Shown here: piece after piece, positions 7,341 through 63,774 of the stretch | Numbering within the stretch: position 1 is the stretch's first letter | Layout of the letters: every line of letters starts with the position of its first letter | DNA from: Nitrospirota bacterium | GTDB taxonomy: Bacteria > Nitrospinota_A > UBA7883 | DNA length: 64,000 nt | Direction: 5' to 3' | Assembly (NCBI GenBank): GCA_024275315.1 | Contig: JAJRZK010000033.1 | Span: 1 to 64,000 of the forward strand | The notes under the pieces: model-generated | Databases searched by the model: none | What the model saw: only the letters and a program-made list of their open reading frames with translations | What the model was told of the DNA's origin: nothing | Made by a program: the position numbers and the translations under genes

Positions 7341-7829
7341 TTACACGTAGTGGCCCAAAAGAGTAAACGCGATAAAAGTGATCGCCGCGGCCGCGCCCGC
7401 CGCCATTGCTATGGGTCGCTTTGACGGGCGACGTTCTTTTCCCCCGCGGTCTATAAACGGCACCAGCAAAAGAAGGGTGACAGCCACGCCCTGCATGACT
7501 ATGCCCATAATTTTAGGCGCCCACGCGCCCAAAAACTCTGTATATTCGGCCACACGCAACGTATAGTAGGCGGCAAGGAAATACCATTCCGGTTTTATAT
7601 GATCAGGCGTGTTGAACGGATCCGCCTTTTCCCCGAGGTGCGCCGGGAAAATTGTCGAAATGGTAATCAGAATCATCAGCAAGGCTCCGCAGATAATTAC
7701 CTGCTCGGCGACATGACGGGGGAAAAACCAGTGCGCTTCGCCATCTTTCACCATGCGCTTTTTCTCCTCCAGGGGAAGCGCCTTGACCTCGCACTCCTTT
7801 TTTTTCGTAAAATCAGTCTGATGAGCCAA
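7341..7829 (-). CDS. Cytochrome b C-terminal part (subunit IV/PetD-like)
   Basis: Membrane subunit of a cytochrome bc-type quinol oxidase complex. It carries the Qo-site signature PDHIKPEWYF (PEWY) and three hydrophobic segments, matching the C-terminal half of cytochrome b. The frame is open to 7880 (TTG), but TTG at 7829 has AGGGAA 6 bases upstream and gives a normal subunit-IV length of 162 aa, so I prefer it. Fourth gene of the minus-strand operon pentahaem cytochrome-Rieske-cytochrome b-this gene. Confidence 0.9.
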   Translation of the reverse strand: MAHQTDFTKKKECEVKALPLEEKKRMVKDGEAHWFFPRHVAEQVIICGALLMILITISTIFPAHLGEKADPFNTPDHIKPEWYFLAAYYTLRVAEYTEFLGAWAPKIMGIVMQGVAVTLLLLVPFIDRGGKERRPSKRPIAMAAGAAAAITFIAFTLLGHYV

Positions 7830-7883
7830 TTTTATTTCCCTATGATTTTCGACACTACATATACCCTTGCAAACCCGCAATAC

Positions 7884-8585
7884 CTATAGCGGTCCGGAAA
7901 TCCCCTGTCTTCTGATCTGGAGCAGATGCAAAAGCACTGTCGCGGCGGTTATCACGGGCAACACCATAACGTGAATGGCGAAAAATCTTGTAAGCGTAAC
8001 CTGCCCGATCTCATCACCTCCACGCATGGCAAAACGGATATACTCGCCTATATACGGTATCGCAGCCGGTGTTTCCGTCCCGACCACCGTGGCCCAATAC
8101 GCAAGCTGTGTCCAGGGAAGCAGGTAGCCTGTAAAGGAAAGTCCCAACGTAAGCAACAGCAAAATCACCCCGACCACCCAGTTTAGCTCCCTGGGAGCCT
8201 TGTATATGCCACTTACGAATATTTTTGTCATGTGTACAGCAATGGTTATCAGCATAAGGTTAGACCCCCATGCGTGAATTCCCCGGATCAGCCATCCAAA
8301 CGGAGCCTCGTTCATTATCCTCCCAACCGAAGCGTGGGCCTGGGATATTGTCGGCTGGTAATAGATCATCAGCAGTATGCCGGTTACTATCTGGCAAATA
8401 AAAAGAAAAAAGCTGATACCACCGAAACACGACCAGAAACCCAGATGCGCCGGAGCGATTTTTTCGAATACCTCGTCGTCGAGTATCTCTTTGACGCCAA
8501 GCCTGTCGTCCAAAGCTGAAAACATGCGGATCACCAGCTTGTTCTTCACTTTGAAAGGGCCAAGCTCGAGCGTGTCCATATCCAT
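7884..8585 (-). CDS. Cytochrome b N-terminal part (PetB-like, dihaem)
   Basis: 233-aa four-helix dihaem membrane subunit. The bis-His haem ligands are H104/H118 (GIHAWGSN...AVHM) and H205/H220 (FAIHVM...LLHLL), with the expected 13- and 14-residue gaps. GYLLPWTQLAYWATVV is the typical Qo-side helix. The C-terminal half is encoded separately by the next gene, as in b6f-type and some bacterial bc complexes. The gap to the Rieske gene is 3 bases, so translational coupling is likely. Confidence 0.95.
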   Translation of the reverse strand: MDMDTLELGPFKVKNKLVIRMFSALDDRLGVKEILDDEVFEKIAPAHLGFWSCFGGISFFLFICQIVTGILLMIYYQPTISQAHASVGRIMNEAPFGWLIRGIHAWGSNLMLITIAVHMTKIFVSGIYKAPRELNWVVGVILLLLTLGLSFTGYLLPWTQLAYWATVVGTETPAAIPYIGEYIRFAMRGGDEIGQVTLTRFFAIHVMVLPVITAATVLLHLLQIRRQGISGPL

Positions 8586-8588
8586 TGA

Positions 8589-9044
8589 TCAAGCTTCCTC
8601 TATAACTATATATCCATCTTCAACGGTTGTGGAATACGATTCGAGAGGTGATGGAGGCGGTCCTCCTATCACGGCCCCCTTCGTGTCGAAAACGCCCCCA
8701 TGACAGGGACAATGTAACTCGCTGTTTGCGTCGTTCCACTTTACGATACAGCCAAGATGTGTGCACACAGCCGACAACGCCACCAGCTCCTGCTCGTTGG
8801 GACGGATGATTACGGTGGGTTTGTTAAAAAAACGGATGAATTTGGCGTCTCCGATGGGAACCTCCGCCAATGGTATCTTCATCGATCTTGCCCCGCCCTC
8901 GGGCCGCTTCTCCCTCCTGGGCCACAGATACAGCCCAACAGGGTAAATCACACCCACAACCGCAATTGTTCCGAAAAACCCCAGCGCGGCGTTGAGAAAT
9001 CCACGCCTGGAATCGGCGGCCGGATCGAGCGATTCTGTTGTCAT
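8589..9044 (-). CDS. Rieske iron-sulfur protein of the bc-type complex
   Basis: 151 aa. A Tat-like SRRGFLN signal at about 12-18 precedes one hydrophobic segment, so it is a membrane-anchored periplasmic protein. Cluster ligands are C94/H96 (CTHLGC) and C112/H115 (CPCHGG), with C99/C114 as the disulfide pair. GGPPPSPL is the Pro loop. It transfers electrons from quinol to the cytochrome c partner. It lies 86 bases downstream of the multihaem cytochrome gene and 3 bases upstream of cytochrome b. Confidence 0.96.
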   Translation of the reverse strand: MTTESLDPAADSRRGFLNAALGFFGTIAVVGVIYPVGLYLWPRREKRPEGGARSMKIPLAEVPIGDAKFIRFFNKPTVIIRPNEQELVALSAVCTHLGCIVKWNDANSELHCPCHGGVFDTKGAVIGGPPPSPLESYSTTVEDGYIVIEEA

Positions 9045-9129
9045 CGGCAGGACAGTCCTTTCATGGAGCCGACACCCGGTCGTCGCGGTTCATTTCAATA
9101 CGCATCTCCGTCTCCTGCAAAATCAAAGG

Positions 9130-10236
9130 TTAATAAAGATAATCCACCCACACCGCGATTTTCGCCTCCCTGTTTTTTGGCAAATAGAAGGTGAACGTCT
9201 CTTTGCGCGTCTCTTTGGGGAATATCCTGTTGTCCTTGGCGATACTGACCCCCATTCCCATCATTATGTCCGAATCGTTTTTAAGCTCGAACCCTTCAGA
9301 ATCGAAAATAGCTTTTTCATAGATTATTTTCTCTTTGTACACCTTGCCGCCCGGTATGCGGATCTCACAATACAGGATCAATTTGCGCGTCGGCACCCCT
9401 GTGGGCACGCGATGCCCGGACCCTACGTTGCTCACATCCACATGGACGGTCATTCTGTCCTTTTTCCTCTCCACCCTCGATATTTTCAGGGCGAGAGCTT
9501 TTTTCAACTGCGTGAGGGAATGACCGCCAGCCAGGTTATGGTCGAAAATCTTCCCACCCCGGCCCGGGACGTTGTTGGAAATCTGTCCCTCGGATTCGGG
9601 CATATGGCAATACTGGCACTGTTTGCCCTCCTCGGCGTAGGGGCTTTCTTTCCATTCGGAGTAAGTGGTCATCACAGGGACGCCGTTGGGCCTGTATTCA
9701 TGGCACGCCGCGCAAAGCCGCGCCTCGCTGTGAAGCGTTGTATGGCCAATGTCATGGACTTTGACATCCCCTTTTTTGTTAGGTCCGTATTTTGTCTTAC
9801 CCAGGTCGATAACAAATGGATTCTCCGGATTATCCAGGTTCACATCCTTCAGGCTGTGACAAAAATCACACGTCAGCCCTTCCCTGGTCACTCCCATAAC
9901 CAGATCGCGCTCGCCGGTGACCAGGGTTGTCGGCGCATGACAGCGAAGGCAAAGCTTCTGGGCTTTATCCGCATCCTGAAAATGGGCCATTATATACGAA
10001 GCTCTGAAAATGGGGTCTGTGACAGATCCTGCGTGGAGAGACTTTTTCCACATGTTATAAATCTGGGTATGGCACTCGCCGCAAACCTCGCTGGATGTAA
10101 AACCATTTTCATTGATGAGATTTTTCCTGGGCTGGGACAAGGCCGTCTGCGCAGAAATAAAAATAAATAGGGTAAAGAAACAAAGGCGCCCAATGGATTG
10201 CCAATACCTCCATCGGAACACAACGGCTCTGCGCAA
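9130..10236 (-). CDS. Pentahaem cytochrome c (c554/c'-like family)
   Basis: 368 aa with an N-terminal export signal (hydrophobic about 15-30, AQTALSQ cleavage region). Five CXXCH sites lie at residues 52-56, 96-100, 123-127, 175-179 and 207-211, spaced as in the cytochrome c554 family. From about 245 to the end is a haem-free, beta-rich domain with a conserved-looking GSGHRVPTGVPTRKL segment. AGGGAGGA 9 bases upstream of TTG 10236 supports this start. As first gene of the operon with Rieske and split cytochrome b, it is the likely electron-accepting cytochrome of that complex. Confidence 0.92.
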   Translation of the reverse strand: MRRAVVFRWRYWQSIGRLCFFTLFIFISAQTALSQPRKNLINENGFTSSEVCGECHTQIYNMWKKSLHAGSVTDPIFRASYIMAHFQDADKAQKLCLRCHAPTTLVTGERDLVMGVTREGLTCDFCHSLKDVNLDNPENPFVIDLGKTKYGPNKKGDVKVHDIGHTTLHSEARLCAACHEYRPNGVPVMTTYSEWKESPYAEEGKQCQYCHMPESEGQISNNVPGRGGKIFDHNLAGGHSLTQLKKALALKISRVERKKDRMTVHVDVSNVGSGHRVPTGVPTRKLILYCEIRIPGGKVYKEKIIYEKAIFDSEGFELKNDSDIMMGMGVSIAKDNRIFPKETRKETFTFYLPKNREAKIAVWVDYLY

Positions 10237-10460: not shown

Positions 10461-12476
10461 ATGCGCTCTAACACAATGATAGTCACAGCCGCTCTGCCCT
10501 ATGCCAACGGGTCGATACATTTGGGACACCTTGTCGAATATATACAGACAGATATTTTTGTTCGTTACCAGAACATGACCGGCCGCAGATGCCTCTTCTT
10601 TTGCGCCGACGACACCCATGGGGCGCCGATCATGATCCGGGCCAGGAACGAGGGGACAACACCGGAAAAAATTATCGAACGCTATCACGAGGAGCACAAA
10701 CGGGATTTCGCCGATTTTCATATCAAATTCGATAACTATCACTCCACGAACTCTGAGGAAAACAGGAAGCTGGCTGAAGAAATTTTCCTGAAACTAAAAA
10801 ATGGAAACCACATCGTCACCCGAAACGTGGAGCAGACATTTTGCGAAAATGACAACATGTTCCTTCCCGACAGGTTCGTCCGGGGGATATGCCCGAAGTG
10901 TGGCTCCGACGACCAGTATGGCGACGTATGCGAATCCTGCGGGTCGCATTATGACACGACGGACTTAAAAAGCCCCAAATGCTCCATGTGCGGCCAGACT
11001 CCCACAAGAAAGATTTCGAGCCATTACTTTTTCCAGGTATCGCATTTTATGGACGAGCTGAAAAAACTCACGGAAGGGGACACGCTCCAGCCGGAGGTGA
11101 ACAACTTTTTGGCTACATGGCTCAAGGAGGGATTGAAAGACTGGGACATTTCCCGGGACGGTCCCTATTTCGGATTCAAAATCCCCGGTGAAGACAACAA
11201 GTATTTTTACGTGTGGCTGGACGCTCCTGTCGGATACATCTCGTCCGCCTATCACTGGGCCAAGATGAACAACGAGGATTTCGACCCCCTCTGGAAAAGC
11301 GGCGAGGCCGAGATACATCATTTTATCGGTAAAGACATCGTATATTTCCATACATTGTTCTGGATACCGATGCTGAAAGGGTCCGGGTTTAAAAAGCCGG
11401 ATAAAATTCACGTTCACGGGTTTTTGACGGTAAACGGCGAAAAAATGTCCAAAACCAAGGGGACATTCATAAACGCCCGCACGTACCTTGATCACCTGGA
11501 CCCTGAATATCTGCGCTATTACTACGCCAGCAAGCTGAAAAATTCCGTGGACGACCTGGACTTGAGTTTCCAGGATTTCGTGTTCCGGGTGAACGCGGAA
11601 CTGGTCAACAAGGTCGCCAACCTCGGCTCACGAACCATCGGGATGCTCAACAAGATCAAGTCGCTGGACAACAAGCTCGAGTTTTTATCTTTCAGCGACG
11701 CGTCGGACGAATTGCGTTTGTTGCAAAAAATAAAAAGCGAAAGCGAAAGTATCGCCGCGGATTATGAAAATTGCGATTTCAACCTGGCGATAAAAAAGAT
11801 CGTAAAGCTCGCCGACGAGGCCAACTTATACATCGACACCGCCAAACCCTGGGAGCTGAAAAACGATCCCGATAAATTACAGCATGTCCTGACCACTGGC
11901 ATAAACGCCTTCATGCTGATCACAAAATATCTGAAACCGGTTGTTCCTGGGTTTGCCAGTAAAGTTGAGAGGATTTTACAAATTGAACCGCTTGTGTGGG
12001 GATCATATAAAAATTCGACCGATTTTTTGCGTAACCACAAAATCGGAGCCTTCGAAAGGTTGATGGACAGGATAGACATCAAATCGACCGACAGGATAAT
12101 CGAGGCTACCAGGACCGAAGCGGAATCGAAACCTGGGCCGGGACCGGATACAGAATCGATAGATTATGATGATTTTTCCAAAATCGATCTCAGGACAGCG
12201 CTGGTCGTCGAAGCGGAAAAGGTGACCAGTGCCGATAAACTGCTGAAATTAACAGTTGATGTCGGAGGTGAGCAAAGAACGTTGGTGGCCGGTATCGCAA
12301 AGGACTATTCGCCGGAAGCGCTGATCGGCAAAACCGTGATAATCGTGGCCAACCTGAAACCGAGAAAATTAATGGGAATCGAATCCAGGGGGATGGTTCT
12401 GGCGGTTAACGACGGGAAAACACTGCGGCTGGTTTCGCCGGACAGCCCAACCCCATCCGGAAAGAAGGTGTCTTAA
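10461..12476 (+). CDS. metG: Methionyl-tRNA synthetase
   Basis: 671-aa class I synthetase charging tRNA-Met. The HIGH motif is HLGH (20-23). The zinc-binding insertion has the four cysteines of CPKCGS...CESCG and a further CSMCG pair. KMSKT starts at K328. The anticodon-binding helical domain is followed by a C-terminal Trbp111-like tRNA-binding/dimerisation domain (from about 570, DFSKIDLRTALVVEAE...LVAGIA). Full length, intact and of the long two-domain type. Confidence 0.98.
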   Translation: MRSNTMIVTAALPYANGSIHLGHLVEYIQTDIFVRYQNMTGRRCLFFCADDTHGAPIMIRARNEGTTPEKIIERYHEEHKRDFADFHIKFDNYHSTNSEENRKLAEEIFLKLKNGNHIVTRNVEQTFCENDNMFLPDRFVRGICPKCGSDDQYGDVCESCGSHYDTTDLKSPKCSMCGQTPTRKISSHYFFQVSHFMDELKKLTEGDTLQPEVNNFLATWLKEGLKDWDISRDGPYFGFKIPGEDNKYFYVWLDAPVGYISSAYHWAKMNNEDFDPLWKSGEAEIHHFIGKDIVYFHTLFWIPMLKGSGFKKPDKIHVHGFLTVNGEKMSKTKGTFINARTYLDHLDPEYLRYYYASKLKNSVDDLDLSFQDFVFRVNAELVNKVANLGSRTIGMLNKIKSLDNKLEFLSFSDASDELRLLQKIKSESESIAADYENCDFNLAIKKIVKLADEANLYIDTAKPWELKNDPDKLQHVLTTGINAFMLITKYLKPVVPGFASKVERILQIEPLVWGSYKNSTDFLRNHKIGAFERLMDRIDIKSTDRIIEATRTEAESKPGPGPDTESIDYDDFSKIDLRTALVVEAEKVTSADKLLKLTVDVGGEQRTLVAGIAKDYSPEALIGKTVIIVANLKPRKLMGIESRGMVLAVNDGKTLRLVSPDSPTPSGKKVS

Positions 12477-62169: not shown

Positions 62170-62748
62170 TTATCCCCCGTAGTAAAGGGCGGATATGATA
62201 TGAGCGACCAGGATAACCGCCAGAATCAGGGACAGAACCCTGTGCACCGTCCGCCACATGATCATGGCGCCATCGGTGGCGGCGGCTACGACGATGATAT
62301 CCTCCACCTTGTCAGGCGACAACCCGGACTGAGTCAACTCTCCCCGCAAGACCGCAAGCTTGTTTTTGACACTTCTGAAAACAAATCGCCCCACGAAACC
62401 GCTAAAAAGCGTTAGAAACATGAATGCGATGGTGGCCAGGGGCAAGGTCGCTCCCAGACCGGCGCCGGCGTGTGCGATGATAAAAACAACTGATAAGGCG
62501 GAAAACCATTGGTGCACATGGAGCCATTCGCTTTGCATCCAGGGAAGGTCTCTCCAGCTTTTCTTTATCATGTATCCTGCCAGGGACAATGCCACCAGCA
62601 ACATTCCGACGCTTCCGAAGGCGTGGCGCAACAACGCCGGAAGCTGCCTGTGTTGATCCGTCATCTGGTCGATAACGATTTCTGTTCCGGCGACCAGTAT
62701 AAGGATAATCGCTATCAGTGCCGTCATTAACGTCAGCTTTGTGTACAA
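62170..62748 (-). CDS. Four-helix b-type cytochrome-like membrane protein
   Basis: 192 aa with four or five hydrophobic segments and well-placed histidines in or next to them: H42, H77/H79, H93, H169 and H183, as in cytochrome b561/ferric-reductase-like or Ni/Fe-hydrogenase b-type folds. A cytoplasmic loop (GRFVFRSVKNKLAVLRGELTQ) separates the halves. TTG start with GGGAA upstream. It lies 51 bases after a multihaem cytochrome and is likely its membrane partner. Confidence 0.7.
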   Translation of the reverse strand: MYTKLTLMTALIAIILILVAGTEIVIDQMTDQHRQLPALLRHAFGSVGMLLVALSLAGYMIKKSWRDLPWMQSEWLHVHQWFSALSVVFIIAHAGAGLGATLPLATIAFMFLTLFSGFVGRFVFRSVKNKLAVLRGELTQSGLSPDKVEDIIVVAAATDGAMIMWRTVHRVLSLILAVILVAHIISALYYGG

Positions 62749-62799
62749 TTGCGCGTTCCCTGTTATTGATATTTATTTTTCTGGCGGATTTGACCTTTT

Positions 62800-63774
62800 T
62801 TAAACGCCAGATTCGCCCCTATTTTTCCTCAGCCATTTTTTGAACAATTTCATCAAGTTCCTGATGTTGTCCGATAATCCTTTTTTCACCTTTCTACCGA
62901 ACGGATGGCATTTTTTGCATTTGTAAGCGTCTTTTACACCCATCTCAAGATGCTTGATCTCGATTTGCCCGGCGTCGTGCTCATGACAGTTCAAATAACA
63001 ATCATAACTGTCCAGAGTTTCCGGATGGCAGGTCAGACAAGTGTTGTTGGACCGTTTCGATCCGTGCCATTTAGGGAAATCATGGTCATAATTGGCCGGT
63101 TTCCACCCTGAGGAGCTATGACATTCGACACAATCCTTTTTCGTTTTAAGGTGGTTGGCGCGAGCGGGATGACACTCCAGGCAACCTTCGCTTATTTTGA
63201 TTTTCGAATGGTCGTATTTATCAGAATACCACTTGGTATAGCTGTGGCACGTTCTGCACCTGGCCCGTGATTTGAAGTGGGTAGGGGGAAGGTGATGGCA
63301 ATCCAGACAACTGTCCCCTCTGGCCACCGGAGCGTGATCAAACCTGGCCGGTTTCCAGTTATGCATGATATGGCAATTTTTACAATCGTCATCACCTGAT
63401 GACGCGTGAAAATGGCCAAGCTGATGGCATCGCAGGCAATTGGCGTCTTTGCGGATATTTTCATGAACCGTGGTCTTTGTAATCTCCCCCTTCACTCCCG
63501 CGTGCTCCAGGTGGCAATCCAGACACCCTTCTTTTTTCAAATGTTGCCTGATCAACCCTTTGCGGTTGGTCCAAAAGATCGCGTCATGGCATTTGGCGGA
63601 GGCGCAAGTGGCCCATCCCGGTTTGGTAAAGGGATTGTGGCACGCGGTGCAGTTCTTTATTTCGAGGTGTTTTTCGTTAAGGTACCCTGGAGAGTACATA
63701 AAAGCGGGATAGCTCCACCCGTACAGGAAAACAGCCGAAATAAGAGCAACAAATAACAATATGTATTTTTTCAT
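62800..63774 (-). CDS. Multihaem c-type cytochrome: ten CXXCH plus two expanded motifs
   Basis: 324 aa with an N-terminal membrane segment or uncleaved signal (YILLFVALISAVFLYGW). Ten CXXCH sites: 42-46, 84-88, 113-117, 131-135, 156-160, 173-177, 198-202, 215-219, 246-250 and 286-290. Two further motifs are expanded: CASAKCH (CX4CH, 57-63) and CYLNCH (CX3CH, 259-264). Many free His between them supply distal ligands. Resembles c3/c7-related periplasmic wires. Basic C-terminus. Likely operon with the b-type membrane protein, as a quinol-periplasm link. Confidence 0.9.
   Translation of the reverse strand: MKKYILLFVALISAVFLYGWSYPAFMYSPGYLNEKHLEIKNCTACHNPFTKPGWATCASAKCHDAIFWTNRKGLIRQHLKKEGCLDCHLEHAGVKGEITKTTVHENIRKDANCLRCHQLGHFHASSGDDDCKNCHIMHNWKPARFDHAPVARGDSCLDCHHLPPTHFKSRARCRTCHSYTKWYSDKYDHSKIKISEGCLECHPARANHLKTKKDCVECHSSSGWKPANYDHDFPKWHGSKRSNNTCLTCHPETLDSYDCYLNCHEHDAGQIEIKHLEMGVKDAYKCKKCHPFGRKVKKGLSDNIRNLMKLFKKWLRKNRGESGV

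Follow-up and report, generated by a model that had tools for sequence, protein, structure and literature searches.

Gene content and distribution

The first 64,000 nucleotides of contig JAJRZK010000033.1 from a Nitrospirota bacterium (assembly GCA_024275315.1; this whole stretch is referred to here as the window) contain a cluster of four genes encoding a pentahaem cytochrome, a Rieske iron-sulphur protein and a cytochrome b split into a b6-like protein and a subunit IV. The genes are four same-direction open reading frames (ORFs) that fill positions 7341-10236 on the minus strand, with products in the ORF list of 368, 151, 233 and 179 aa. The first (9130-10236) starts at a TTG codon and encodes a cytochrome of the c552/PHC family with a signal-like hydrophobic N-terminus. 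It is followed by genes for a b6f-type Rieske protein (8589-9044), a cytochrome b6-like subunit (7884-8585) and a petD-like subunit IV (7341-7880), these last three being spaced 3 nt apart; folE occupies the place after subunit IV. Each product scores above the cut-off of a Pfam family: Cytochrome_C554 for the pentahaem protein (36.5 bits against 20.8), Rieske (PF00355; 60 bits against 20.3), Cytochrome_B for the 233-aa protein (PF00033; 190.4 bits against 27.2) and Cytochrom_B_C for the 179-aa protein (PF00032; 62.3 bits against 20.7). The genome is a draft of 2.9 Mb in 63 contigs, estimated to be 100% complete. It is placed here in the phylum Nitrospinota, as records under that title contain the nearest relatives of the cytochrome.

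The pentahaem gene has many relatives. A scan of contigs with two peptide patterns returned 253, of which the best 80 were kept, giving 79 loci; with three loci from a genome search, two second copies and the window itself, these make up the 85 sequences compared here, which are a sample and not a census. In 32 of them the next 500 bp downstream contain a Rieske gene on the same strand, and in seven more such a gene is found up to 4 kb upstream or up to 2.5 kb downstream; these 39 are labelled on the tree as linked to Rieske and cytochrome b genes. Seven are labelled as NrfC/NrfD-linked, and two with divergent Rieske and cytochrome b genes (L128 and L146) are counted as other. The window falls in a clade of 21 sequences (support 98/90, with the bootstrap not yet settled), in every one of which the pentahaem gene is directly upstream of the Rieske gene; all four genes are present in order in 18, and the remaining three are cut by contig ends. 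Thirteen of the 18 named records in this clade are titled Nitrospinota, Nitrospinia, Nitrospinales or Nitrospinaceae, four are titled Nitrospirae and one simply 'bacterium'. Records titled Nitrospirae, Acidobacteria, Armatimonadetes, Deltaproteobacteria and Dadabacteria are among the linked sequences outside the clade. The tree requires eight changes of the linkage label, or at least five if supported branches alone are counted, which indicates repeated gain or loss of the pairing between the pentahaem gene and the Rieske and cytochrome b genes.

A separate clade of 12 paralogues (support 100/100, mostly Nitrospinota) has a different association, in that NrfC- and NrfD-like genes, scoring under their NCBIfam cut-offs, follow in five of the sequences, and some other relatives adjoin neither set of partners. 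Both associations are seen together in one genome (G009, L044:3262-9733), where same-family pentahaem genes occur twice in a single gene row, one before the Rieske, cytochrome b and subunit IV genes, and the second behind these three and before NrfC- and NrfD-like genes.

The b6f-like core and the pentahaem cytochrome

Gene content, family membership, residues and their conservation were read directly from the sequences. Residues 20-233 of the cytochrome b align with cytochrome b6, its best match in the PDB (E 1e-64), and the haem b ligands are invariant in the clade (H104 and H118 in 20/20 sequences, H205 and H220 in 19/19). Residue C53 (codon at 8427-8429, minus strand) is aligned with the cytochrome b6 cysteine to which haem c_i is bound; it is invariant in 20/20 clade sequences, and a cysteine is found there in only 3/8 loci outside the clade. 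Judging by these residues, the cytochrome b would carry haems bL and bH and probably c_i. Subunit IV has b6f subunit 4 as its best PDB match and carries the PEWY motif of the Qo site, present in 18/18 clade sequences. The best PDB matches of the Rieske protein are likewise b6f Rieske proteins, and its cluster ligands (CTHLGC...CPCH) are present; among the other sequences L077 reads CPHLGC and L091 ends with its contig. This is the sole bc-type Rieske protein found in the draft genome.

The window Rieske protein has Gly and Phe at the positions occupied by Ser and Tyr in high-potential Rieske proteins. Ser is present in 0/20 clade sequences and Phe replaces Tyr in 17/20, one further sequence being cut by its contig. 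Ser and Tyr at these second-sphere positions raise the potential (PMC12954380), and since both are missing a low Rieske potential is to be expected. One gene, of the MqnA/D family (PF02621, 168.4 bits), is present in the genome and points to menaquinone as the quinone that the complex would probably use.

The pentahaem protein carries CXXCH motifs at residues 52-56, 96-100, 123-127, 175-179 and 207-211, followed by a C-terminal beta domain at about residues 248-368. An AlphaFold model has a pLDDT of 76.8, with ten-residue means of 83-96 from residue 251 on. Over residues 43-368 the model follows the structure of the Thermochromatium tepidum pentahaem cytochrome c552 (5ze8), with Z 21.4 and a root-mean-square deviation of 3.1 over 295 residues at 24% identity. 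Foldseek alone returned no cytochrome in its first 50 rows for this model; the 5ze8 match comes from a second aligner and is backed by sequence searches, in which a profile of 18 pentahaem relatives finds 5ze8 at E 5.5e-30 and the selenoprotein MccSep at E 2.7e-11. The five CXXCH sites, the beta domain and the 5ze8 fold together place the protein in the T. tepidum c552/ExtKL (PHC) family. The preliminary description of this locus as split cytochrome b and Rieske genes led by a c554-like pentahaem cytochrome with a C-terminal beta domain is confirmed. The pentahaem protein is not a tetrahaem cytochrome c554 proper, as the Cytochrome_C554 match is confined to residues 51-128 and there are five haem sites as well as the beta domain. 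Identity to same-family relatives is 64-69%. Two further and more distant five-CXXCH c554-like cytochromes are encoded in the same genome (L040:6239-7426 and L041:5976-7190; 27 and 37% identity), with no cytochrome b match within the 13-14 kb read around each.

The literature groups cable-bacterium proteins, Geobacter ExtKL and Gsu2801 as one pentahaem family, likens a small PHC form to c552 and relates the PHC family to the archaeal nanowire cytochrome AvECN (PMC11976967). On that published link could be built a scheme in which a proton-pumping Q-cycle complex feeds its electrons directly into a PHC cytochrome that leaves the cell or polymerises outside it, Nitrospinota thereby coupling menaquinol oxidation to extracellular electron transfer by way of a dedicated bc-type complex. 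We regard this as a highly improbable speculation. The structure 8e5g of AvECN, a polymerising tetrahaem cytochrome, matches the pentahaem protein only at E 0.18 and is absent at E 0.01 when the family profile is used.

An improbable reading is that the pentahaem cytochrome is a terminal reductase, of nitrite, hydroxylamine or selenite for example, wired to the quinol pool through the b/Rieske complex. A role in selenite reduction has been suggested for ExtKL by its authors (PMC5877670), PHCs of cable bacteria have been counted, from predicted models with a five-coordinate haem, as potentially catalytic (PMC11976967), and the protein here does contain a c554-like domain. However, ten histidines (H56, H68, H100, H127, H161, H179, H211, H233, H239 and H275) are invariant in the clade, save that one sequence whose contig begins inside the gene is without the first two, and these would suffice for five six-coordinate haems if ligation is as the sequence suggests. 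The selenocysteine position of MccSep (X in 9wt8; A in 9wt9, where it is named U325A) is V281 here, and across the clade is I in 16, M in 3 and V in 2, so that 21/21 have no selenocysteine. The ExtKL model (NF040886) scores the protein at 71.5 bits, below its curated cut-off of 250. H233 and H239 were also considered as a marker of the members linked to cytochrome b, and were discarded because both are common among unlinked sequences too.

The pentahaem reading frame closes at an in-frame TAA at codon 369 (9130-9132), beyond which it continues for 22 codons (9064-9129) matching the C-terminal tail of the family before reaching a TGA (9061-9063). The tail past this position is present in 20/20 other members of the clade. 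The TAA is either a recent nonsense change, a sequence error or a tolerated truncation. It could be taken as a sign that the cluster is decaying in this genome, with a nonsense change interrupting the pentahaem gene and the complex no longer fully used. We think this very unlikely, as the rest of the cluster is intact and keeps its ligand residues, the missing segment comes after the last haem motif, and the stop could itself be an error of the draft sequence.

The place of cytochrome c1 or f

The preliminary description noted that the usual cytochrome c1 or f is absent, and this stands: there is none in the operon, and in the whole draft genome the c1 family (PF02167) gives two scraps of 14.5 and 10 bits against a cut-off of 22.8 and the f family (PF16639) gives no match. 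Both models are narrow tests, each scoring over its cut-off in just 1/14 control genomes. We looked at the slot following subunit IV in loci with both Rieske and cytochrome b matches, a choice that leaves out L101, which has a cytochrome b and no Rieske match. The sample contains 20 such loci from outside the clade; contig ends cut two of them short, and in all 18 readable ones a gene with at least three CXXCH motifs (5, 6 or 9) follows subunit IV. In BLAST comparisons with one nonahaem protein, ten of these slot cytochromes are clearly related to it (187-861 bits), seven are weakly related (60-87 bits) and that of L113 is unrelated. Of the 13 clade loci that offer at least 1.7 kb of readable sequence at this place, one has a multihaem gene after subunit IV, and in this exception (L080) the gene encodes the NrfCD-type pentahaem. 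Among readable loci, only in the window's clade does the operon encode no c-type cytochrome besides the pentahaem. The preliminary suggestion that the c554-type fusion domain seems less common is partly right: it holds for a pentahaem as sole c-type cytochrome of the operon but not for the pairing as such, which recurs in several phyla (39/85 sequences).

A reverse survey started from 18 cytochrome b loci outside the clade, hand-picked among the higher-scoring matches. A cytochrome with at least four haem motifs lies beside the b genes in 13, with L192 having it upstream.

The window's genome does encode a relative of the slot cytochromes, on another contig (C20; L210:11572-12951). This is a protein of 459 aa with nine CXXCH motifs and a hydrophobic C-terminus, where the best 19-residue hydropathy mean within the last 60 residues is 2.12; its position and hydropathy, too, are direct readings. 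It matches the nonahaem protein of genome G047 at E 2.4e-79 and 37% identity. Its best matches outside the phylum, among 311 multihaem ORFs, are mostly subunit-IV-slot cytochromes, although that set was drawn from loci chosen because they carry a pentahaem or cytochrome b gene, and so favours operon neighbours. A less biased search with the G047 protein covered 60 whole genomes (24 in the phylum and 36 outside it). Nonahaem matches were found in five of the 36 outside genomes, and in all five the best match adjoins a cytochrome b gene. Within the phylum, a nonahaem gene is present in 16/19 genomes with an orthologue of the cytochrome b (at least 58% identity) as against 1/5 without (G019), for which Fisher's test gives p 0.014, a value that ignores kinship. 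The nonahaem gene is never near these cytochrome b genes in the loci that were read, and in a genome of four contigs (G007) about 1.1 Mb of a single contig separates the two. The nonahaem gene is followed by a gene for a small protein in six or seven loci, all of them from Nitrospinota; none was found in the operons of other phyla.

These results bear directly on the proposal that the pentahaem cytochrome is itself the equivalent of c1 or f, docked on the Rieske/cytochrome b core and taking its electron from the Rieske cluster. It is attractive in that the gene is the sole source of a c-type cytochrome in the operon and always stands directly before the Rieske gene, that no c1 or f scores over cut-off in the genome, and that the nonahaem gene lies outside the operon and is missing from 3/19 complex-bearing genomes. 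Cytochromes c1 and f are membrane-anchored. By hydropathy, in contrast, none of the 21 clade pentahaems has an anchor past the signal region, the best 19-residue mean beyond the first 60 residues of the aligned sequences being 0.5-1.05. Outside the clade the pentahaem coexists with another multihaem cytochrome in the c1/f slot, and relatives of it also adjoin NrfC/NrfD-like genes or neither partner. A similar coexistence is described in Methanoperedens (MPEBLZ_00816-00823), where two pentahaems occur in a Rieske/cytochrome b cluster that also has a c1/f-type cytochrome according to the authors (PMC4683180); that system is archaeal, and its pentahaems are likened to ours by description only. 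A homologue of the slot cytochrome is, in addition, encoded elsewhere in this genome. We consider the proposal doubtful, and the replacement of c1 by the pentahaem is the weaker part of what was first described. The preliminary description had held that a c1-like gene elsewhere with the same expression pattern would refute it, and the nonahaem gene is c1-like by position and topology only and not by homology to c1.

Proposed electron path, comparable systems and other genes

Little is known of what accepts electrons from the Rieske protein where a b6f-like complex has neither c1 nor f. The scenario that we favour, and hold with middling confidence, is that the cluster specifies a menaquinol-oxidising b6f-type Q-cycle complex for which the nonahaem cytochrome, supplied in trans, would be the docking subunit and the pentahaem cytochrome a dedicated soluble next carrier. 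Menaquinol would be oxidised at the Qo site, with one electron recycled via the b haems and c_i and the other passing from the Rieske cluster to a multihaem cytochrome, then to the pentahaem and from there to acceptors in the periplasm. The role of a c1/f-like docking subunit would most likely fall to the nonahaem with its hydrophobic C-terminus rather than to the pentahaem, the nonahaem gene lying directly after subunit IV in other phyla and elsewhere in Nitrospinota genomes. Position, hydropathy and co-occurrence together suggest this role for the nonahaem, and the lack of any segment of nonahaem-like hydropathy past the signal region suggests that of soluble carrier for the pentahaem. The quinone in use, the potentials, the path of the electrons, export and a physical link between the complex and either cytochrome are all matters that we infer.

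Besides the sampling bias and the kinship mentioned above, several observations weigh against this scenario. Three complex-bearing genomes (94, 81 and 73% complete) have no nonahaem match at E 1e-20, and five of the 18 hand-picked cytochrome b loci (L193, L197, L200, L201 and L203) have no adjoining multihaem gene. An operon for alternative complex III (ActA-E; ActD 71.2 bits against 25.7) lies on C20 only 1.8 kb from the nonahaem gene, and the nonahaem may serve that complex instead; this is the main doubt over its partner. A full operon of this kind is beside the nonahaem gene in 2/11 phylum loci (the window's genome and G001) and part of one in G007. It is not a fixed neighbour, since the remaining 8/11 loci have none, some of their contigs being short. 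An uncleaved N-terminal signal could anchor the pentahaem protein, and in its truncated form in this genome the protein might be impaired. As to the potential, a Rieske protein with Phe and without Tyr has a high one all the same (PMC12954380).

Multihaem cytochromes in place of c1 or f are known elsewhere, as the preliminary description correctly stated (PMC2825233, PMC5877670, PMC12954380, PMC3578206), and a PHC beside Rieske and cytochrome b genes is also already known (PMC2825233, PMC5877670). The latter is seen in the extHIJKLMNOPQS cluster of Geobacter, in which ExtKL is a pentahaem selenoprotein, ExtO a Rieske protein, ExtP a cytochrome b and ExtQ a membrane protein (PMC2825233, PMC5877670), so that, as here, a PHC-family pentahaem, a Rieske protein and a cytochrome b share one cluster. 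Unlike the four genes of the window, ext adds cytochromes with 12, 10 and 4 haems, a porin and a rhodanese in the published descriptions, and the window proteins score below the NCBIfam cut-offs for ExtP (243.8 bits for the cytochrome b against 290) and ExtQ (17.9 bits for subunit IV against 150). The anammox complexes Kuste4569-4574 and Kustd1480-1485 resemble the window in their four-helix b6-like cytochrome b, subunit IV and Rieske protein, and have multihaem cytochromes with a transmembrane helix in place of f; they differ in having hexa- and octahaem subunits and an NAD(P) oxidoreductase (PMC12954380). Their Rieske proteins keep the Ser and measure +303 and +335 mV (PMC12954380), whereas that of the window has neither the Ser nor the Tyr. 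A bc-like operon of Nitrospina gracilis, of the same phylum, has a Rieske protein and a split b6/subunit IV; it differs in an adjoining octahaem cytochrome c, and the passages on which this comparison draws name no pentahaem (PMC3578206).

The four-gene arrangement, the trans-encoded nonahaem and the two membrane partners of the pentahaem family were not found in the open-licence literature searched. The comparison separates two roles that are easily merged, that of a slot multihaem with a hydrophobic C-terminus and that of an upstream soluble pentahaem. It predicts a Nitrospinota complex assembled from the products of two loci, and a single pentahaem family serving two quinol-oxidising membrane modules, the Rieske/cytochrome b and the NrfC/NrfD-like.

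Among the other related genes of the genome, one encodes a second Rieske domain joined in a single protein to a glutamate-synthase domain (contig C41, L208:2194-3777), and there are three other cytochrome b loci, all without a Rieske gene. One of these cytochrome b genes (contig C11, L038:5500-9308) comes after a gene for a NosZ resembling the clade III lactonase type, which at 578.2 bits is below the cut-off of 700; a gene for a membrane protein that has a single CXXCH comes next, and these genes are possibly a quinol route to N2O reductase. The two remaining cytochrome b genes lie near a bd-like oxidase subunit (PF01654) and near a COX1 protein, respectively.

We also note two adjoining genes on the minus strand of the window at 62170-63774. 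One encodes a multihaem cytochrome of 324 aa, with about ten CXXCH, one CX3CH and one CX4CH motif counted by eye, and the other a membrane protein of 192 aa that is weakly cytochrome b561-like (22.1 bits, below the cut-off); the two are a possible second quinone-linked multihaem pair. Finally, a divergent ORF of 663-671 aa borders the four-gene cluster in the window (10461-12476) as well as at L044:9837-11828 and L045:4855-6855. The window copy is a methionyl-tRNA synthetase and the other two are matched to it by size and place alone; this shared neighbour may point to vertical inheritance.

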